Shown here: piece after piece, positions 7,879 through 21,526 of the stretch
How positions within the stretch are numbered: position 1 is the stretch's first letter
Layout: each line of letters begins with the position of its first letter
Virus record (IMG/VR): IMGVR_UViG_3300023184_000358
Location: 1 to 32,129 of that record
DNA length: 32,129 nt
Reading direction: 5' to 3' (one strand)
Origin: a virus
Notes under the pieces: generated by a model
The model's database searches: none
Seen by the model: the letters and a program-made list of their open reading frames with translations, nothing else
What the model was told of the DNA's origin: nothing
Translations under genes and position numbers: made by a program

Positions 7879-8255
7879 AGCGCGGTTTCCTTTCCTGCGC
7901 CTGGCTTTTGGGCCACGTCAACAGACGCTTCAGCGCTTGCCGCGCTAATGCGGTTAATTTCTGAAATAATGGCTGGCAGGATGTGGACTGGCAGCGTGAA
8001 CCCAAAACACTGAGCGGCGGAGTCACAGGTGCCATTACGCACCGCTGTCAGCACATTCTCCAACGGCTCGGAATGCAACCAAGTGAAAGCGATCAATTGC
8101 CGCTCTGACTCACCGGCATCATCTGATACCTCGCCACTAGTAAACATCGTGAGCCGCATTTGTTCGCAGATCGCTTTGCTGCCAATCGTAAACGCGCGGA
8201 AGCGAATGCCTCCAATGGTTTTTTCTCCATCAAGAAAATCGTGGATTTCATTCAT
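7851..8255 (-). CDS. Tail assembly chaperone (G-like)
   Basis: 134 residues, MNEIHDFLDGEKTIGGIRF at the start and GKETALGNLFGLGS at the end. Its position between the tube genes and the tape measure, and the frameshift signal in its last 10 codons, identify it as the functional analogue of lambda G even though the sequence is divergent. The helical middle (RQLIAFTWLHSEPLENVLTA) fits that role. The ATG overlaps the upstream stop by ATGA-type coupling. A minority of ribosomes should enter the -1 frame near base 7872. Confidence 0.78.
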   Translation of the reverse strand: MNEIHDFLDGEKTIGGIRFRAFTIGSKAICEQMRLTMFTSGEVSDDAGESERQLIAFTWLHSEPLENVLTAVRNGTCDSAAQCFGFTLPVHILPAIISEINRISAASAEASVDVAQKPGAGKETALGNLFGLGS

Positions 8256-8695
8256 AATTCAGCAAGAATTTGATTTTTTCGTGCTTCAGGAAGGTCGGGG
8301 TGAATTACTGCAACACGTCCTCCGCGACGGATTAACACGGCGGGCTTGAGCGTTTTGATCCACGTCTTCATCTTGGCGCCGTTGTCGCGGAATAGGCGCA
8401 TATAGCTGATCGGGTGGTCTGGGTTCTCCGCGCACCAGGTTGCTGACATCCAGCGTCTGCGAAATTCGGCAAACGTCACCGACTCGGATCCAAACGTCAC
8501 CGGCACATCTCCATCCACGCACCAGGTGACGGTTTGCCTGGGGCCGTCGTGCGTATCTTCAACAGTCCATGCGTAAGGATCTTCTTTTAGGAGTTGGCCT
8601 CCACAGGTAAACCAAGCGCCAACAATGTCGGTGTTTGGGGATTTTAACGGCGGGAGGTTGTCCCGCATGAATTCAATGGTCTGTCCGACGTGCAT
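8252..8695 (-). CDS. Tail-region protein of unknown function
   Basis: 147 residues: MHVGQTIEFMRDNLPPLKSP at the start, a Trp/Cys-rich centre (AWFTCGGQLLKEDPYAWTVE, RWMSATWCAENPDHPISYM) and a basic end (LIRRGGRVAVIHPDLPEARK). Its stop overlaps the start of the G-like chaperone (ATGA). I do not recognise the family. Position between tube-like proteins and chaperones suggests a structural or assembly role. Confidence 0.62.
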   Translation of the reverse strand: MHVGQTIEFMRDNLPPLKSPNTDIVGAWFTCGGQLLKEDPYAWTVEDTHDGPRQTVTWCVDGDVPVTFGSESVTFAEFRRRWMSATWCAENPDHPISYMRLFRDNGAKMKTWIKTLKPAVLIRRGGRVAVIHPDLPEARKNQILAEL

Positions 8696-8713
8696 AATAT
8701 TTCAAACTGCGGG

Positions 8714-9019
8714 TTAAGTTGCGTGTGGGTAAGCTGTTCCAGAATAGGAAAACCCAACCCAATCGTCATTGGTTTCTGTAAGCGTTACGTTTGTGATAAT
8801 AATTTTGCCCGTTGCTCCTGTAGGCGCCCCATCAGCTCCACCAATGGTGACGGGACTTGTGCCTTTGCCCTTAACCGAAAAAGTATAGGAATCGTCCACG
8901 GAGCGAACAGCGGAATGCGTTCCAGTTGAGGTGATTAGCTGTTTAATCTCTGCTTTATGTTCGAGATCAACGCTTTCAATTAAATCACCCGTGATTTTTG
9001 TGATGCCAAAAGTGCTCAT
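8714..9019 (-). CDS. Small tail tube-like protein, second paralogue
   Basis: 101 residues. It aligns with its upstream neighbour at 9025-9324: AEIKQLITSTG against ATIKNATGQ, FSVKGKG against VSVKTKG, and TETNDDW against SETNDDF near the C-terminus. Beta-rich with an acidic C-terminal loop, and in the lambda V (tube) position just before the chaperones. The leader is TAATTTTTATG with no SD. A tube or tube-initiator role is inferred from position and fold type only. Confidence 0.65.
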   Translation of the reverse strand: MSTFGITKITGDLIESVDLEHKAEIKQLITSTGTHSAVRSVDDSYTFSVKGKGTSPVTIGGADGAPTGATGKIIITNVTLTETNDDWVGFSYSGTAYPHAT

Positions 9020-9024
9020 AAAAA

Positions 9025-9324
9025 TTATGCGTAAAGGCTTCCGGTGACTTCAGAGGTTCCAAAGTCATCGTTGGTTTCCGAGTATTTTGACGAGGTAATT
9101 GTCATTCCAGAAAAGTCGCCAATTGCGATGGTCGACAATGTTGCGCTGCCTTTAGTTTTTACGCTTACAGTTTGAAGTGTGCGCGGCTTTTTGATTGCCT
9201 CCACAATTTGCCCCGTGGCGTTTTTAATAGTAGCAACCTCCACGTCTGTAGAGCTTTCTGAACTTTGAACGTAACCAGTAGGAGCTGAGACTCCGAATGT
9301 GTCTGCGACACCGAATGCGGGCAT
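9025..9324 (-). CDS. Small tail tube-like protein, first paralogue
   Basis: 99 residues (MPAFGVADTFGVSAPTGYVQ at the start, SETNDDFGTSEVTGSLYA at the end). Mostly beta strands, paralogous to the following gene, which points to local gene duplication. At about 100 residues each, both are far shorter than lambda V (246). Together they may build the tube, or one may be an initiator or connector. It follows the tail terminator-like gene. Confidence 0.65.
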   Translation of the reverse strand: MPAFGVADTFGVSAPTGYVQSSESSTDVEVATIKNATGQIVEAIKKPRTLQTVSVKTKGSATLSTIAIGDFSGMTITSSKYSETNDDFGTSEVTGSLYA

Positions 9325-9330
9325 AAAGAA

Positions 9331-9714
9331 TTATGGTTTTGGGCCGTAGCCGATTGTGGATGTGAGCGTCGTAGACCAGTGGCGCTCGGTGTTGTTTCCG
9401 TCTGAAGATTTGGAAATAATTCCGTAAAGTTGCACGGCATCAGAGTCGATTTCGATGTTTGTCAAAAAATCTGAAACCTCTTTTACAAATGCAATGTGTT
9501 GCGCAACCGTTGAGTCATCAGCCTGTTGCGCCACAGCGACGGAAAGCTGCCCTGTCCACAGCGGCGAGTTGAGCAGCGAGTTGCCTTTTAAGTCGAGGAT
9601 GATGCAAGGCATTGTGATCCGCTCGTTATCATGCGGCAGGCCCACAAAGGTCGTTGGGAAAGCGTCTTGCAAACTGTTGCGAATGGCATCGCACATCGCC
9701 AAATCAAGGCTCAT
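9331..9714 (-). CDS. Tail terminator / minor tail protein U-like
   Basis: 127 residues from ATG 9714 (MSLDLAMCDAIRNSLQDAFP). An upstream in-frame ATG at 9744 lies inside the previous gene, while 9714 overlaps that gene's stop as ATGA. The middle (TMPCIILDLKGNSLLNSPLW) and the end (ERHWSTTLTSTIGYGPKP) show the alternating strand pattern of small tail terminators. Length and position (after the head-tail joiner, before the tube) match lambda U (131 residues). The family assignment is inference. Confidence 0.65.
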   Translation of the reverse strand: MSLDLAMCDAIRNSLQDAFPTTFVGLPHDNERITMPCIILDLKGNSLLNSPLWTGQLSVAVAQQADDSTVAQHIAFVKEVSDFLTNIEIDSDAVQLYGIISKSSDGNNTERHWSTTLTSTIGYGPKP

Positions 9715-14321: not shown

Positions 14322-16064
14322 TTATGCTCCGTCTTCCTCTGCGTCAACTACCGTCTCGCGTAATAATCCAAGCATCAGCGCCACCGCCGTCACCATTGCT
14401 TCGCAATCCCCCATGTGATTGTCTCGATGGATCCGAACGTAACGCCGTTGGATCGTTTTTGTAAATTTATCAACTACTTCCCGTTTAGCCTCGGCAACAA
14501 TTTGTTTAAGGTAATCTTTTGGCGTATCTAGCCCATATTCCCAAACTGGTGATCCCATTGCCCGCAACTGTGCAAACCGATCCTTAACTCCTTCATTAGC
14601 CCAAAAGATATACCTGGCTCGCCCTCCCGTTGGAGCTGCGGCGTCCTTTACGGGCGAATAAAGCTTATCCACCATTTTGTTTCCGACTGAATGCTGAAAC
14701 GATTTGCGGCCGGATCCATGCAGAGCCGTCCAATTCCATCGAGCACAACAAGCGTAGGTCAACCCTGTGTCGTACTGCGCATCCATAAAAACCAGTTTGT
14801 CGTGGACTTTTAGCCGTTGCTGAATCTGCCGGAGCTGCTCCTCAGTTAGTACTTTTCCGCACCAAATCAAGCGGCTGGATCCATCAGACCGCCACGCTCG
14901 GCATACTGCCCAAAAGTGATCCCGTTGCCGGTCAACTGCCATCAATCGCTTGGCCTCTCCGTCAATAGGTTGACCATCTCCATGATCTGCCAAGTGATAA
15001 TCCCCTGCCGTTAGATTGATTTCGGGCGACTCCTGCTCATCACTCCATGATTGCGCCAATCGTTTTTGGCGAAATTGCTTCAGCGGTTCCGTATTTCCCC
15101 GCCGTTTTTCTTCATTGGCTTTAAGCCACTCAACCACCATGTCAGCCCAAGCAATCCACCAAACGCTTTGTGCCGACCACGTAAACGACACGTTGCCAGC
15201 GATAGGCTGGGCGCCGTGCTCAACCTCATAGCGCCCCCTGCTAGCCATCCCTCGCCTACCCTGAGTCGTGTCCAGCGTGGCGTGCCCACAGAGCGGGCAT
15301 TCATGCCGTACCGATGCCATGACGCCTGCCCAGTTCCATTCGTTTTTCTCGTCGCGGATCTCATCGTATTTTATCGAGGTCCACAGATATTTATGCCAGT
15401 CCCCGCAGCTTTCGCATTCGGTGCCCCATTCGTGGACTACGCCGCTGTGAAACTCACGGTCAAAATCATCGCCGGTTTTGCTGCCTTGCGACACCAAGAT
15501 GGTCTTGCGGTTCCACCGACAATGGTGGCGTTTCTTTAGTTCATCCACCAGCCCTGGCGCCCAGCGCCAGCATTCATCGCCGTAGCAATAGCGCATCGAC
15601 TTTTCCTGCAAGGAACTCATATTTGCGCCACTCATAAACAAAGCCATGTGTGGGAACATGATGGCGGTCTTCCTCTTTTGGTGCCGATCATGCGGAAACA
15701 GCCGAGCCACTGGAGGGCAGGATTCAAGAATTGGCATCAATCGCGACTCGGCCCATTCCTTGGTCGTCTCATCGGTCTGGCCGACTAACATCATTGGCCC
15801 AGGCTGCTGGGCCACGACCCACGGAACGACCAACTCCAGCAACGTTGTCTTTCCTCCGCCCGTCGGCGCCCGGGCAACGATTTGCTTGATCCGGTCGTCG
15901 CAGACTGCGCGAAAAATGTCATTAAGCCAGGGAGCGTTGTCCCGCTGAAACCGTGTCGAGCGCGCCGAGTGCGGCAGCCGGACGTGCTCCGCTAGCCAAT
16001 CCAGCGGGTCGCCCTGGTAGCTGGTGACAATGCCAGCCGCGACCCCATCACTAAGTGGATTCAT
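14322..16064 (-). CDS. Terminase large subunit, GpA family
   Basis: 580 residues. The Walker A motif is at residues 66-73 (APTGGGKT) and a Walker B-like segment is MRYCYGDEC. Two Cys pairs (CESCGDW and CPLCGH) form the zinc-finger-like insert typical of lambda GpA-type terminases. C-terminal nuclease candidates are MAVDRQRDHFW, FMDAQYD and MGDCEAM. It powers DNA packaging and cuts the concatemer, docking on the portal. The start overlaps the small subunit stop by 14 bases. GpA-type enzymes often cut at specific cos sites, but no cos site can be identified by eye. Confidence 0.93.
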   Translation of the reverse strand: MNPLSDGVAAGIVTSYQGDPLDWLAEHVRLPHSARSTRFQRDNAPWLNDIFRAVCDDRIKQIVARAPTGGGKTTLLELVVPWVVAQQPGPMMLVGQTDETTKEWAESRLMPILESCPPVARLFPHDRHQKRKTAIMFPHMALFMSGANMSSLQEKSMRYCYGDECWRWAPGLVDELKKRHHCRWNRKTILVSQGSKTGDDFDREFHSGVVHEWGTECESCGDWHKYLWTSIKYDEIRDEKNEWNWAGVMASVRHECPLCGHATLDTTQGRRGMASRGRYEVEHGAQPIAGNVSFTWSAQSVWWIAWADMVVEWLKANEEKRRGNTEPLKQFRQKRLAQSWSDEQESPEINLTAGDYHLADHGDGQPIDGEAKRLMAVDRQRDHFWAVCRAWRSDGSSRLIWCGKVLTEEQLRQIQQRLKVHDKLVFMDAQYDTGLTYACCARWNWTALHGSGRKSFQHSVGNKMVDKLYSPVKDAAAPTGGRARYIFWANEGVKDRFAQLRAMGSPVWEYGLDTPKDYLKQIVAEAKREVVDKFTKTIQRRYVRIHRDNHMGDCEAMVTAVALMLGLLRETVVDAEEDGA

Positions 16065-16605
16065 GCAGTTTGGCCTTCACCCTGCCCAATAAAAGGTCAA
16101 TGCGGCCCTGTAGCTTGGGCCGGACCTCCTCTTCGGATTGTCCCGCGATCTGTCCCGTCAAATCGTTTACCAGCGCTTGGCACTCTGCCGACAAGATGGC
16201 ACCAATCTGCACCCCCGCCTCCCGCACCTCAGCGCGGTTGATAAGTTCGCCTCGGGCTTGGGCGTTCTGGATCTCCAGTCGCTCAACCTCCAGCATTGTT
16301 TTGCGAAGCTTTGCGTCAGAAAGCCCCACGGGCGTCTCCTTGACCTTTGCCGCGCGCCAAGCGTCCATCTCTTCAACCGTCCCCTTCAGCGGAGCCCCGG
16401 CCTTGCCCCATTTGATTATAGTGACGTGCGACACGCCGTAATGCGCCGCCCATTCCCTTGTCGTTTTGGGAGGCTCCTGCCCACGCTCGTATGCTTCAAC
16501 CTGCGCTTGTTCGCGCTTTGAAATTGTTTTGCCAGCCTTGAGTTTGGCAAAAATGTTTTTTACTTGCGCGTGTTGGGCTTGGTCGGAGAGTTTCATTTTA
16601 ACCAT
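16051..16605 (-). CDS. Terminase small subunit (Nu1-like)
   Basis: 184 residues. A basic N-terminal region contains KTISKREQAQVEAYERGQ. Then comes a helix-turn-helix, TTREWAAHYGVSHVTIIKWG (about residues 48-68), with a wing-like GAPLKGTVEEMDAWRAA. A long helix (KTMLEVERLEIQNAQARGEL) and a C-terminal domain probably serve oligomerisation and contact with the large subunit. It recognises the packaging start site on DNA. It directly precedes the large subunit. ATG 16605 and ATG 16596 are both possible starts. Confidence 0.88.
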   Translation of the reverse strand: MVKMKLSDQAQHAQVKNIFAKLKAGKTISKREQAQVEAYERGQEPPKTTREWAAHYGVSHVTIIKWGKAGAPLKGTVEEMDAWRAAKVKETPVGLSDAKLRKTMLEVERLEIQNAQARGELINRAEVREAGVQIGAILSAECQALVNDLTGQIAGQSEEEVRPKLQGRIDLLLGRVKAKLHEST

Positions 16606-16612
16606 TGATCAA

Positions 16613-16723
16613 TCACAGCGCGACCTGAGTGTCCGAGTGCGTTCTGGAATTTCGCGCGTACGGAATCAGCGTTTCAATCCTGATCATTTCGATTTGGTAA
16701 CGTGGATTTTTTGAATTACTCAT
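16613..16723 (-). pseudogene. Truncated ParB/sulfiredoxin-like N-terminal domain (36 residues)
   Basis: A small ATG frame (16723-16613) encodes 36 residues containing IRIETLIPYARNSRTHSDTQ, then VAL and a stop. This closely matches the opening of phage ParB-like proteins and ParB-N/DNA-methyltransferase fusions (L-I-P-Y-x-x-N-x-R-x-H-S-x-x-Q-V). Those proteins normally continue for over 100 residues more, so this is a remnant cut right after the first helix. It keeps the T-rich leader seen at intact genes. Full-length versions often sit just upstream of terminase genes, as here. Confidence 0.72.
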
Positions 16724-16767
16724 AAAAAAGAAGAACTAGAGACAGGCACTGCGACGAAACCCCCAGC

Positions 16768-17115
16768 TTAAAGAGATTCCTTAGGGGGGGCCTGCCTCAG
16801 CGCAATGTTTGCCCCTTTGCGCCAATTAGCGACCGTAGCATGGCTAACGCCCTCCCCTTGCCCAGCCTCGTCAAACGTCTCGTAGCCCGCCATGTCCTGG
16901 CGTCCGATAGCAAACGCAATGCCAACAGCCTTTGCCCTTGTCGTCCACAACTTAGGCAACGGATCGAGCAACCACCGTACAATTCGGGTGGCGGCCTCAA
17001 CCGTAGCGTCGGCCCGATGCTCTGCCACTTCGGCAGCATGCCAGCGCGCCACCGTCTCAGCGTGGCGCTCTGGGATCCCCATATCGAGCAGGTCGGCAAT
17101 AATATCCTCATCCAT
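16768..17115 (-). CDS. Small helical protein with C-terminal helix-turn-helix
   Basis: 115 residues, MDEDIIADLLDMGIPERHAE at the start. A helical middle (EATRIVRWLLDPLPKLW) leads to ETFDEAGQGEGVSHATVANW, which reads as a helix-turn-helix and resembles the DNA-binding helix of the small terminase two genes on. It could be a regulator or packaging-site binding protein; this is inference. The 5' leader (17116-17167) can form two alternative hairpins. Confidence 0.65.
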   Translation of the reverse strand: MDEDIIADLLDMGIPERHAETVARWHAAEVAEHRADATVEAATRIVRWLLDPLPKLWTTRAKAVGIAFAIGRQDMAGYETFDEAGQGEGVSHATVANWRKGANIALRQAPPKESL

Positions 17116-17127
17116 TTATTCGGTATG

Positions 17128-17148
17128 CGGCAGGTATTGCCGACCTGC
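17128..17148 (-). promoter_or_regulatory. Two mutually exclusive hairpins in the leader of the 115-residue gene
   Basis: GCAGGT (17148-17143) can pair with ACCTGC (17135-17130), or CGGCA (17142-17138) with TGCCG (17132-17128). The stems overlap, so only one can form at a time. They end 12 bases before the ATG at 17115. A translational switch or protein-binding site is possible; no ligand domain is evident. Confidence 0.4.
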
Positions 17149-17167
17149 AAGGATTATTTTTACAAGG

Positions 17168-17392
17168 TTAACCCTCGGCCCACTCGCAACTGTCTGCCGC
17201 CTCCATTAGCGTTAATGCCATCTCGCGCGCCTCGTCGCGCTGTTGCTTAAGTAAAGCGACCTCGGCAATGGTCTGGGTCAACTCCCATTCGATTAATTCC
17301 AGCCTGGTGGCGGCTTCCATCATAATTTCCTGAGCCAACGGTCCAGGGGGTAAAAATCTCCGCAGCTTTTTGATGAGTGTTTCAGTTGTCAT
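17168..17392 (-). CDS. Small coiled-coil protein
   Basis: 74 residues. A short basic N-terminus (MTTETLIKKLRRFLPPGPLA) is followed by one long helix with heptad character (ATRLELIEWELTQTIAEVAL, LLKQQRDEAREMALTLMEAA). No catalytic motif. It lies immediately after the putative origin, behind an A/T-rich leader (AAAAAATATG) without SD. Function unknown. Confidence 0.65.
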   Translation of the reverse strand: MTTETLIKKLRRFLPPGPLAQEIMMEAATRLELIEWELTQTIAEVALLKQQRDEAREMALTLMEAADSCEWAEG

Positions 17393-17402
17393 ATTTTTTA
17401 GA

Positions 17403-17662
17403 TTGTTCCGGCAATGTTCCGGATCGTGTTTTTGTTATGTTGTTTGTTTTGTTGCACTTGCGACTTTGCTCCGGTGTTCCGGCAAAAAAACGCTAAAACA
17501 TTTGTTTTAAGTTTGGCAGCAACACCCCCCCCACACACTCCTATATATATATAATACATGTTTAGAGAAAATATATAGAGCAGTGCTACTGCCCTAACAT
17601 TGAGCAATTTAGGTGCCGGAACATTGCCGGAACATTGCCGGAACATCTGAAATTGCCGGAAT
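17403..17662. other. Iteron cluster with AT-rich core: candidate replication origin
   Basis: Three perfect tandem copies of tgccggaacat lie at 17614-17624, 17625-17635 and 17636-17646, plus a partial copy at 17654-17662. Inverted copies (tgttccgg with ca or a) lie at 17404-17413 and 17415-17423, again 11 bases apart, and at 17475-17484. Between the two arms is an AT-rich stretch (17541-17578, including a run of alternating TA) and a C8 tract (17525-17532). The right arm encodes the last residues of the primase-helicase; the remaining roughly 200 bases carry no convincing gene. Iterons, AT-rich core and an adjacent primase gene are the layout of an origin. An operator region is the alternative. 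Confidence 0.68.
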
Positions 17663-19747
17663 AAGGCGGTAGCCATTGCGAGTGCCGTTGTCGGTGCGCA
17701 GCTTAACCCGGCTCCAGCCTAGGGCGACCATAACGCCAGACAGGCGCTTAGCGTCCTTGAGCGTCTGCTTGCCGACGTCGATACCTAACGGGCCTCCTAG
17801 GATGTCAGCAGAGGTCCATGTGCGGGTCTCCGCCAGTCCAGCGCGCAGGATGTCCTCCCAAGGGTCGTCAGCGCGCCTGTTGGCCACCTCCCGCGCTGCA
17901 GCGTCGTAGGGCACGCTGTACCAGTCGCGACCGGCCCGGTACTGCGCTAGCGCCTCGGCAAAGATCTGCTCTCGGTGCGTTGCGAGCCAGACAAGATCAA
18001 CTGCGCCGCAGCGCACCGGCCAAAACCTGCGGCCGCCGGTGGGGTCTTGGTGCCAGTCGTCCCGGTTCGTCGTGCCCGAGAAAACAACCTGCCTCGGCGC
18101 CTCCTTAAAGTGCCGGTCGTAGGGCGAGCGGAAGCGGTCGGTTGCGGTGGATAGCACCGCTTTGACGCGCTCCACCTCGGCCGCTGTCATGCTATGCAAC
18201 TCAGAAAGCTCCATCAGCCACCGGCCATCAAGGGAGAGGTTAAAGTCCTTGGTCCCGATCTGCTCATGCGATTCGGCAAAAAACTCGCCGCCCAAGATTG
18301 CCAGCGCGGTCGATTTGCCAATGCCTTGCGAGCCCTCAAAAACCGGCATCGTGTCGACCTTGCACCCCGGGCGCATCACCCTGGCGACCAGCGAGACGGC
18401 AAAACACCGCCCGACTGCCTCAGAATACGGCGTTCGGGTTGCGCCAAACCCAACCGGCATCAAATCCCCCAGCCTTGGCACCCCATCCCAGGTCAAACTC
18501 GTCAACCAGTCGGTCATGCAGTTGCGCCGGTTGTCTTGGGCGATGAGACCGACGGCCGCATCAACGTGTGATTTTTCCGCGGTTGCGAGCAGGGCAACAC
18601 GCTGCAACCAAAGCAGCAACCGCGCGGAGTCCGTGTCGTTCCAGTCACACTCTGGGCCGATGTAGTTTGTGCGTATCCGATTCCGGAACGCGTCGTACCA
18701 AATGCGCCCCTTCCAGGTTGGATGCTCTGCAAGGTAGCTATAGATCACGGACATGTTAACCTTTGGTTCGCCTCGGTTGTTGACCGTCACCCCGTAGGCG
18801 GCAAACAGCGCGCGGGCGTCGGCAAGCGGCGCATCCAACGGCGGCGCCACCACTACCAGCGGCACCTCGGCCGTGGAGGTCCCGACAAACGCCATCAACT
18901 GCTCGGCCGTCCAACCCTCAGCGATCGCGTCGGCGCAGTCCCAGCCTTTTGGTTTATCGGCCGGAATTTCCAGCACTCGGGCGCCTGGGATAGACGCCAT
19001 CGCGTTGTGGCCCGGGTCGTCGTTGTCAGGCCACGCCACAAGGGTGCGACCCTGTAGCGGCAGAAGGTCAGTCTGCCGGATCCCATTTGCGCCTCCTGCC
19101 CACGAAACCACAACGGCCTCAGGCAACGCCCTCTGTAGTGCGTCAGCGCACTTTTCGCCCTCGACAATGATCACCTGCGCCGATGGCTTGGCCACAAGAC
19201 GCATGAGTCCGTAAAGCGGCCGTGGCGTCGGGAAACCCTTGGATGTCCACAACTCAGACCCGTCCGATTGCAAATATCCCCAAACGCGCGGGACAAATCG
19301 TTTTTTGCCGTTGCTCTCAAATCGCAGGATGTGCCCAACGTCCTCGCCAGATTTGTTATAATACTGATGCACCGCCTGGGCGGTTGCCGCCATTGGATCC
19401 ATCGGCGTGCAGTCGTCAATCCGCAGCGGCTTCCAGTCATCCTCGACTACTGCCAGCGGCGGCGCAGAAACTGCCGCTGTAGTGCCCAGCATGGCTTTTG
19501 CCGCGTCGAGCATGCCGGTGTGGTGCAGCGCCGCGTAGAGTGACACCGGATCACTTCCGCCTTCGCCGCTCGCAAAGTCCTTCCAAACCCCTTTTTGAAT
19601 ATTGATTTTAAGCGAGTCCCCAGGTTCCCCAGAGAGCGAGCCCACGCACCACTCTTGGCCATGTTTTTTGCCGTTAGGCAACCATTGGTTCAGGCGCCCG
19701 AGGAAGTCTGCAAGTGCAACCGCGTTAGCTGATTCGATATGTTTCAT
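17609..19747 (-). CDS. Toprim primase / VapE-like (VirE-family) helicase
   Basis: About 712 residues from ATG 19747 (an in-frame TTG two codons earlier at 19753 is possible). The N-terminal region has GVWKDFASGEGGSDPVSLYA, typical of primase leader domains. A Toprim segment follows (VIIVEGEKCADALQ near 194-207 and WPDNDDPGHN near 241-250). The C-terminal half is a VapE/VirE-type P-loop ATPase: FEGSQGIGKSTAL near 472-484, WLMELSEL near 512, and GTTNRDDWHQDPTGGRRFWP near 560-579. It should prime and unwind phage DNA. No DNA polymerase gene is visible, so host polymerase is presumably used. Its 3' end is built from the iterons. Confidence 0.9.
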   Translation of the reverse strand: MKHIESANAVALADFLGRLNQWLPNGKKHGQEWCVGSLSGEPGDSLKINIQKGVWKDFASGEGGSDPVSLYAALHHTGMLDAAKAMLGTTAAVSAPPLAVVEDDWKPLRIDDCTPMDPMAATAQAVHQYYNKSGEDVGHILRFESNGKKRFVPRVWGYLQSDGSELWTSKGFPTPRPLYGLMRLVAKPSAQVIIVEGEKCADALQRALPEAVVVSWAGGANGIRQTDLLPLQGRTLVAWPDNDDPGHNAMASIPGARVLEIPADKPKGWDCADAIAEGWTAEQLMAFVGTSTAEVPLVVVAPPLDAPLADARALFAAYGVTVNNRGEPKVNMSVIYSYLAEHPTWKGRIWYDAFRNRIRTNYIGPECDWNDTDSARLLLWLQRVALLATAEKSHVDAAVGLIAQDNRRNCMTDWLTSLTWDGVPRLGDLMPVGFGATRTPYSEAVGRCFAVSLVARVMRPGCKVDTMPVFEGSQGIGKSTALAILGGEFFAESHEQIGTKDFNLSLDGRWLMELSELHSMTAAEVERVKAVLSTATDRFRSPYDRHFKEAPRQVVFSGTTNRDDWHQDPTGGRRFWPVRCGAVDLVWLATHREQIFAEALAQYRAGRDWYSVPYDAAAREVANRRADDPWEDILRAGLAETRTWTSADILGGPLGIDVGKQTLKDAKRLSGVMVALGWSRVKLRTDNGTRNGYRLIPAISDVPAMFRQCSGT

Positions 19748-20075
19748 CTGCAATTTCTTCTTCTAGTTTTTGTAGTGCCTGCTCTGGCGAACGGGCAATA
19801 AAGGCGATCCCGCCCATTCGTTTCACGTTTTTTAACCAAGTTTTTTGCTCGTCCGACGGTGTGCCGATTTCTGTTTTGACTTCCACCGAAAGAAATATCG
19901 CGCGCCCGTTAACTGTCACCCACCCAATAAGATCAGCAGAGCCGACACATAACCCAAACTTCTGGAAATTACCATTGGCAGTCTTAAATGCGCCGACGTT
20001 ATTTCTGAAGATCCGTACGTCTGGGCGGCGGCCGAGAGCAAACAGGATCTTTGCTTGTATTTGCGACTCGGTCAT
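19725..20075 (-). CDS. VRR-NUC domain nuclease
   Basis: 116 residues, essentially a single VRR-NUC domain (PD-(D/E)XK superfamily). Motifs: TESQIQAKILFAL, FRNNVGAFKT, GSADLIGWV (catalytic Asp), FLSVEVKTEIGTPSDEQKTW (Glu-x-Lys), GGIAFIARSPEQAL. Stand-alone phage VRR-NUC proteins are predicted structure-specific nucleases, often beside an SF2 helicase as here. The ATG overlaps the helicase stop (ATGA) and the 3' end overlaps the primase start. Confidence 0.88.
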   Translation of the reverse strand: MTESQIQAKILFALGRRPDVRIFRNNVGAFKTANGNFQKFGLCVGSADLIGWVTVNGRAIFLSVEVKTEIGTPSDEQKTWLKNVKRMGGIAFIARSPEQALQKLEEEIADETYRIS

Positions 20076-21526
20076 GGGCAGCGGGTCCGTGATGCAGCAA
20101 AACCTTCGCGCGCTTTGCGGCGGCCTTCAAGCGTTATATAAACCCATTTTGGCCAATAATTGCGCACCCTGGCGACCTCTTGTAATTGCTCTTCTGTTCG
20201 CGCCCACTTCATCACTTCCGGGTATTTGGCCGACCGAATCCACTCTTCATCGCGTGCCGCCATAACGGTTTGAGAGACTTCGGCAATCACGCCGGTTGAC
20301 GGTGGCGGCTCTGCTTTTTCCACAACAAACTCATGCCCGCACTCAGTGCAAAACCGAACTTGAATCGGATTGAGCGCATAACATTCGGGGCACCGCTTGC
20401 AGGGGATTGTGGAAACTTTGATGCGGGCTTTACCATCAAGATTCCAATCCCGTTCAAGTTCGATTGGGCCGTGATTTTGCTCCCATTTCCCATCGACAAC
20501 TTTTCCAACATTACAAACGTGATCAATCACAATTGCGTGGGTTTTACCCGGCGCTGGGCGCAGCACTCGCCCGACCTGCTGCATGTACAGCCCGAGCGAT
20601 TTAGTCGGCCGCAATAGGATGGCAACGGACGCTGCCGGAAGATCGAAGCCCTCGCTGATAATGTCGCAAGAACTCACTCCGTGCAGCGCCCCAGAGCGAA
20701 GGTCTGCCACAACTTGGCGGCGGTCCTCTTTGCTCATTGTCGACTCAATTGACGCCCATTTGTAGCCCGCGTCGCAAAACTGTGCTGCAACCCGCTTTGC
20801 ATGCTCGATGCTAACGCAAAAAACGACGGACGGCTGCCCGTCTGCGTGCTTGCGGTATTCGTCGATCGCCTTGCCAGTGATTTTACCAATATCGCCTGCA
20901 GGCATCATCGCGGCCTCTGCGCTGCGGGTCGTATATTCGCCCCCGCGTTTTGCAATCTCGGAAGGATCCACCGTCTGTGGACCAAAATATTTAACAGGCG
21001 TAAGAAACCCAAGTGCCTGCAATTCTTTGACCTGCGGACCTTGTACCATGGCCTCAAAGATATCCCCCAACCCAGAACCATCTAGCCTCTCCGGCGTGGC
21101 GGTAACGCCTAACAGCGTTGCCTGCGGGTAAGCGTTGATGACGTTGCGCCACGAGCCAGCAGTCGCGTGATGCGCCTCGTCCAGGATAATCAATTGCGGC
21201 GTGATTAGGTTGAGCCTGTTAACCAAAGTTTGAATGCTCGCAACGGTAACTAACTCTCCGAGTGCTTGTTTGCGTCCCGCGGCTATAAATCCGTGGGGAA
21301 CATCGAAACTGCTCAGTGTGCCGGAAATCTGGTCAATAAGCTCTTCACGGTGCGCGCAAATCACGATGCGATTGCCTCGGCTTGCTGCGATTTGCGCGAT
21401 GTGTGCAAACATTACAGTCTTGCCTGAGCCTGTAGGAGCGACAAGTAGCACTCGTTTTTTCTTGGCTCGCATTGCATGCCGCACTCCCTCAATGGCAGCG
21501 GCTTGATATTCTCTGAGTTTGATCAT
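20072..21526 (-). CDS. SF2 DEAD/DEAH-box helicase
   Basis: 484 residues. Motif I APTGSGKT at about 30-37, motif II DEAH at 116-119, motif III-like LLGVTATPERLDGSGLG, and motif VI QQVGRVLRPAPGKTHAIVID. A C-terminal four-cysteine cluster (CKRCPECYALNPIQVRFCTEC) forms a zinc ribbon. The layout resembles RadD/XPB-like phage helicases of recombination and replication modules. With the VRR-NUC protein it may process branched DNA. The leader is A/T-rich (AACTTAAAATG). Confidence 0.92.
   Translation of the reverse strand: MIKLREYQAAAIEGVRHAMRAKKKRVLLVAPTGSGKTVMFAHIAQIAASRGNRIVICAHREELIDQISGTLSSFDVPHGFIAAGRKQALGELVTVASIQTLVNRLNLITPQLIILDEAHHATAGSWRNVINAYPQATLLGVTATPERLDGSGLGDIFEAMVQGPQVKELQALGFLTPVKYFGPQTVDPSEIAKRGGEYTTRSAEAAMMPAGDIGKITGKAIDEYRKHADGQPSVVFCVSIEHAKRVAAQFCDAGYKWASIESTMSKEDRRQVVADLRSGALHGVSSCDIISEGFDLPAASVAILLRPTKSLGLYMQQVGRVLRPAPGKTHAIVIDHVCNVGKVVDGKWEQNHGPIELERDWNLDGKARIKVSTIPCKRCPECYALNPIQVRFCTECGHEFVVEKAEPPPSTGVIAEVSQTVMAARDEEWIRSAKYPEVMKWARTEEQLQEVARVRNYWPKWVYITLEGRRKAREGFAASRTRCP

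Follow-up and report, generated by a model that had tools for sequence, protein, structure and literature searches.

Origins of the SaPI/PICI type, such as those of SaPIbov1 and EcCICFT073, consist of two opposed iteron sets that flank an AT-rich core and lie directly 3' of the gene for a self-loading initiator helicase. Older SaPI papers reportedly call the SaPI replicon phage-like. The C-terminal domain of SaPI Rep recognizes the downstream iterons (PMC7581432), and the head-to-head arrangement of two helicase hexamers is attributed to the opposed repeats (PMC9894130). The C-terminal domain of Cch2 also binds downstream repeats, and there direct repeats alone suffice (PMC7581432). The two-armed organization has been stated to occur in no other known replicon (PMC6092414), in the work in which the origin region of EcCICFT073, an E. 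coli PICI, was tested experimentally.

The DNA analyzed here, referred to as the window, is IMG/VR virus record IMGVR_UViG_3300023184_000358, complete at 32,129 bases. An earlier note on it had proposed a candidate iteron origin beside a replication gene, and this is still the best reading: the same layout is kept at the helicase 3' ends of relatives. We consider it very probable that an autonomous tailed phage has its replication origin in these arrays and their core, which are built in the SaPI/PICI manner.

The phage and its primase-helicase

The main gene set of the window is encoded on the minus strand and includes genes for the portal, major head protein, head protease, large and small terminase subunits, and tape measure, together with a RecT-like annealing protein, an exonuclease, and a DEAD helicase. 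Because structural, terminase, and other phage genes are all present, the window is a phage and not a satellite, and it lacks the defining trait of PICIs, reliance on a helper phage to supply the structural genes of the virion. A search of known phages with the window at the DNA level gave no match. Its terminase relatives, up to 97% identical, have other replication genes.

The putative initiator is a VapE-type primase-helicase with a VapE-like helicase domain (PF05272, E 9.6e-67) and a PHROG assignment of DNA helicase/primase. Searched with a profile built from seven orthologs, the solved structures yield a single strong relative, PriRep1 (7PDS, E 2.1e-48; entry title "The structure of PriRep1 with dsDNA"). 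The 7PDS chains are also the best Foldseek match of the AlphaFold model (mean pLDDT 87, pTM 0.53; E 2.7e-25, TM 0.69 on the target), and the SaPI5 primase-helicase (7ola) is also among its structure matches. Sequence profile and predicted model thus both show homology to the SaPI-type initiator PriRep1. The C-terminal 90 residues are predicted to form helices and then two strands, a winged-helix-like order; a fold search with this domain alone was insignificant (best E 0.05). Scanning contigs of genomes with the helicase gave no confirmed match.

Two opposed arrays around an AT-rich core

The repeat word is 11 bp long, with the core TTCCGGC/GCCGGAA, and is found in two opposed arrays. Read in the sense of the helicase gene, four TTCCGGC-type words lie in its last codons. 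After the stop codon come a terminator-like hairpin, the AT-rich stretch that holds (TA)6, GTGTGTG-G8, three words in the opposite orientation, and the next small ORF (Table 1). The earlier note had described three perfect tandem copies plus a partial one, three inverted copies of which two keep the 11-bp period, and a TA-rich stretch with a C8 tract in between, all of which proved accurate. It had also placed one arm in the last codons of the primase-helicase gene, correctly: since the stop codon is at 17609-17611, the helicase-proximal arm falls within the last 18 codons, where it codes past the conserved end of the protein.

Table 1. Coordinates of the candidate origin and adjoining features in the window
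Feature	Position	Strand	Details
VapE-type primase-helicase, putative initiator	17609..19753	-	714 aa; first ATG 19747
Helicase-proximal iteron arm	17614..17664	+	3 perfect TGCCGGAACAT copies and 1 partial copy
Perfect TGCCGGAACAT copies	17614-17624, 17625-17635, 17636-17646	+	
Partial copy TGCCGGAATAA	17654-17664	+	9/11
Degenerate iteron copy TGCCCTAACAT	17590..17600	+	2 mismatches; alone could be chance
Hairpin with T-rich tail, terminator-like	17576..17596	-	just after helicase stop codon; consensus scan
AT-rich core, putative melting region	17537..17584	.	(TA)6, TATATATATATA, at 17542-17553
G/GT tract, GTGTGTGGGGGGGG on minus strand	17525..17538	-	between core and distal arm; C8 at 17525-17532
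Distal arm iteron	17474..17484	-	1 mismatch
Distal arm, two adjacent iterons	17403..17424	-	17403-17413 (1 mismatch), 17414-17424 (2 mismatches)
Small ORF	17168..17392	-	74 aa, no family match; start just beyond distal arm

The consensus scan found 4 terminator-like hairpins in 800 nt against 0.9 expected, and the one behind the helicase gene may, to judge by its sequence, act as a terminator. A 92-aa ORF that runs across the arrays (17398-17676) is a mechanical ORF without family match and was set aside. DnaA boxes (TTWTNCACA, at most 1 mismatch) are absent from 14861 to 20316, and with them the boxes beside iterons that mark iteron plasmid origins of the DnaA-box type.

Could the arrangement have arisen by chance? 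Segments were scored by their best 7-mer on the left together with its reverse complement on the right. The array region scores 6 (4+2), whereas none of 5,000 dinucleotide-preserving shuffles exceeds 4; the 6 is the best score in the whole window, which elsewhere stays at or below 4. Between the arms also lie the most AT-rich 40-mer of the window (33/40) and its one alternating purine-pyrimidine run of at least 12, the (TA)6. The single 11-mer, sought window-wide as the earlier note had suggested, is not enriched (14 seen with at most 2 mismatches, 11 expected); what is unusual is the clustering and orientation of the copies. The GC-skew check proposed in the same place gave no signal, with no inflection around 17.5 kb.

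The layout at helicase 3' ends

The earlier note had made its reading depend on the motif being present in related phages. The word itself is absent from close relatives, but the architecture is kept with other words. This test was too simple, because relatives carry the architecture in words of their own, and an apparent refutation by the missing word was overturned once their own helicase 3' ends were read. The helicase has orthologs of about 45% identity on seven contigs. On six of these, a core at the 3' end of the gene is flanked by clear opposed arrays, with a different word in each: TGTTTCC (L029), GAACCCC (L031), GTTTCCG (L032/L018), GTAGCCG (L033), TGTAACG (L034), and TGTTACC (L038) are the words found, while the array of the L030 ortholog is degenerate. 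Contig L015, which has a different primase and a small terminase subunit 91% identical to that of the window, bears ACTCA/TGAGT words after its own primase. Most orthologs have a GC-rich CGCGCGAG-type element where the window has its G/GT tract; in L029 to L034 this recurrent element (CGCGCGAGG and similar) sits between the AT-rich core and the distal arm in most cases, and GTGTGTG-G8 takes its place in the window.

The survey was extended to 90 non-redundant VapE-type loci. A score of at least 6 occurs at 26 of the 90 helicase 3' ends, against 1 of 1,280 windows elsewhere and 1 of 1,054 at other gene ends, where the one exception (L112) lies behind an ORF adjoining a truncated helicase ORF. 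With helicases collapsed at 50% identity, 14 of 43 clusters reach this score. Among cultured phages, such arrays are found in, for example, Marinobacter phage PS3 and Paenibacillus phage Pd_22F; Staphylococcus phage 2638A scores 5. About half of the VapE loci, among them those of phages Mica, VarioGold, and LPPA36, are without a clear array when exact 7-mers are used. The word of the left arm is pyrimidine-rich in 32 of the 39 loci scoring at least 5. Put through the same procedure, the EcCICFT073 origin region scores 6 (3+3).

These counts bear on whether the arrays might be inverted repeats for recombination, or remnants of a mobile element, with no part in replication. Arms of 19 nt are indeed perfectly complementary across the gap, 193 nt apart, as such an idea would have it. 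The arrays are nevertheless multi-copy with helical-turn spacing, no recombinase or transposase gene adjoins them, and the words vary between relatives while the layout is kept; together with the recurrence of that layout at helicase 3' ends, this makes a recombination role very improbable.

The cores of the phage loci have a feature of their own. Among the 33 with a clean gap between the arms, 24 have an alternating purine-pyrimidine run so long that at most 1% of equal-length stretches in the same locus match it. Counted independently of the arrays, 42.5 of the 90 loci have their longest alternating run within the 400 nt at the helicase 3' end, where 4.6 would be expected by length (16.8 against 2.3 when averaged over clusters at 50% identity). 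In this 3' region, runs of at least 14 have a density of 1.22 per kb, compared with 0.047 per kb outside it; for non-coding stretches alone, the figures are 1.11 and 0.066. Unlike the (TA)6 of the window, most of the tracts are (CG/CA)n and belong to GC-rich phages, many of whose cores are not AT-rich; the longest measure 51-53 nt (L098, L055). Tracts of 30-53 nt were seen in the helicase 3' regions of L098, L055, L063, L059, and L047. Going by their sequence, the (CG/CA)n tracts could form Z-DNA; within the window, a search for a Z-type core found GTGTGTG only, nothing unusual. EcCICFT073, the one control, is without an alternating core.

The same word behind other primases

Where else is the word of the window found? 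Among all viral contigs searched, the exact 19-mer CCGGAACATTGCCGGAACA is present in 30 others, in compact clusters of 5-14 words over roughly 90-430 bp. Nearly all of these clusters hold both orientations, and so does one that is truncated by the end of its contig. The search in related phages that the earlier note had called for thus brought up the same word at the same position in unrelated ones. A large ORF (811-1030 aa) ends at most about 90 nt from the cluster in 24 of the 30. These ORFs are mostly PHROG 1139 DNA primases of about 900 aa, with the cluster about 80 nt 3' of the gene, in phages akin to Pseudomonas phage phi3; in L150 and L145, the cluster lies behind a VapE helicase. Contigs L125 to L154, of the phi3 kind, have TGTTCCGG/CCGGAACA arrays about 80 nt after the PHROG 1139 primase gene, a candidate second origin family. 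Because its clusters stand behind other primases, the word marks replication regions of phages whose initiators are not detectably related to that of the window, and because the order of orientations differs in those contigs, it has been reused rather than copied along with an origin. C-terminal domains compared between loci sharing TGTTCCGG show no significant similarity and so give no sign of a coupling of word and domain; with the word also behind an apparently unrelated primase, the helicase need not be its reader.

Arrays of this kind might instead be operators for a regulator, either a repressor or the small downstream proteins, of the genes past the helicase. The distal arm does stop just ahead of the start of the 74-aa ORF, and several small ORFs are close by. 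Against this, no sigma-70-like promoter was found in 17100-17900, half of the array is inside the helicase gene, and the layout follows the helicase 3' end across loci with differing downstream genes and recurs behind a different primase family. We regard an operator function as improbable.

The probable genome end

On the minus strand around 16749, GTGCCTGTCTCTAG probably marks a fixed end of the genome (cos). Contigs L010, L011, L013, L014, L009, and L020 begin at or near the homologous position, and the start of L014 directly follows an apparent sequencing-adaptor sequence. An end at this position would put the candidate origin 0.65-0.9 kb away from it in the linear genome. Might the arrays then be cosB-like packaging sites for the small terminase? 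Terminase genes and the probable end are within 1 kb, and related contigs start 0.65-0.9 kb from the arrays. Yet two genes separate the arrays from the genome end, close relatives with the same terminase genes, such as L015, bear other words after their own primase, and the arrays accompany the helicase gene across very different phages, all of which leaves packaging a most unlikely function. Several GTATAC words in the first 110 nt of L010, L012, L013, and L014, just inside the probable genome end, are possibly terminase binding sites. In L015, the small terminase gene and the ortholog of window 16768-17115 are separated by a 412-aa ORF (8234-9472) that is missing from the window.

How the origin would work

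From the homology of the initiator and the identical layout, we infer that the SaPI mechanism applies here, with its protein binding, melting, and origin activity. The VapE primase-helicase would bind the iterons of both arms, probably by its C-terminal domain. One hexamer would assemble on each arm, the two in opposite orientation and head-to-head, and together they would melt the intervening AT-rich core with its (TA)6. The hexamers would then load themselves on the opened strands and begin bidirectional unwinding, with the N-terminal Toprim-like primase part priming synthesis.

A broader proposal is more tentative, and we hold it to be possible rather than probable: that VapE-type phages are a large class with satellite-style origins, in which the core is defined by an alternating purine-pyrimidine tract ((TA)n or Z-DNA-prone (CG/CA)n) rather than by AT-richness and opens when the strain from two bound helicases drives a B-to-Z or unwinding transition, while iteron words change fast and unrelated initiators reuse a few of them, such as TGTTCCGG.

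Why does this matter? (i) That a complete phage has the layout, as do dozens of VapE-type viral loci, suggests one initiation system for satellites and phages. (ii) Origins become predictable from sequence alone for many phages. (iii) Fast turnover of repeat words would stop coinfecting replicons from firing each other's origins, and matching words would allow theft between them. (iv) The recurrent alternating core bears on how such origins open in GC-rich genomes.

Comparison with known origins

In phage lambda, iterons lie inside the initiator gene O, next to an AT-rich stretch. The window is similar in that its iterons overlap the initiator gene beside such a stretch, but the lambda iterons are one-sided and O is no helicase, whereas the arrays of the window are two-sided and opposed and the putative initiator is a helicase; one-sided iterons in a lambda O-like gene are not what the window has. 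The alpha protein of phage P4 is a primase-helicase that binds short iterons to initiate, as the helicase of the window presumably does. Its two loci, ori and crr, are kilobases apart, whereas both arms of the window fall within 260 bp. The putative origin of Cch2/SCCmec has its repeats directly downstream of the helicase gene as well; its binding, in contrast, requires direct repeats only. The earlier note had drawn its analogy with plasmids and lambdoid phages: an iteron origin by its own gene is borne out, but the type is that of SaPIs and PICIs, with two opposed sets.

With SaPI/PICI origins, the window shares opposed iteron sets flanking an AT-rich core, a position directly 3' of the gene for the initiator helicase (stop 17609-17611, arms 17403-17664), and an initiator homologous to the SaPI Rep/PriRep helicases. 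As in EcCICFT073 (TCTACC...GGTAGA), pyrimidine-rich words point to the core from the helicase side, but EcCICFT073 is without the alternating core of many phage relatives. The window also differs in having one arm within the helicase coding sequence and in being a complete tailed phage. Read as the origin of such a phage, it departs from the statement that no other replicon is organized in this way (PMC6092414).
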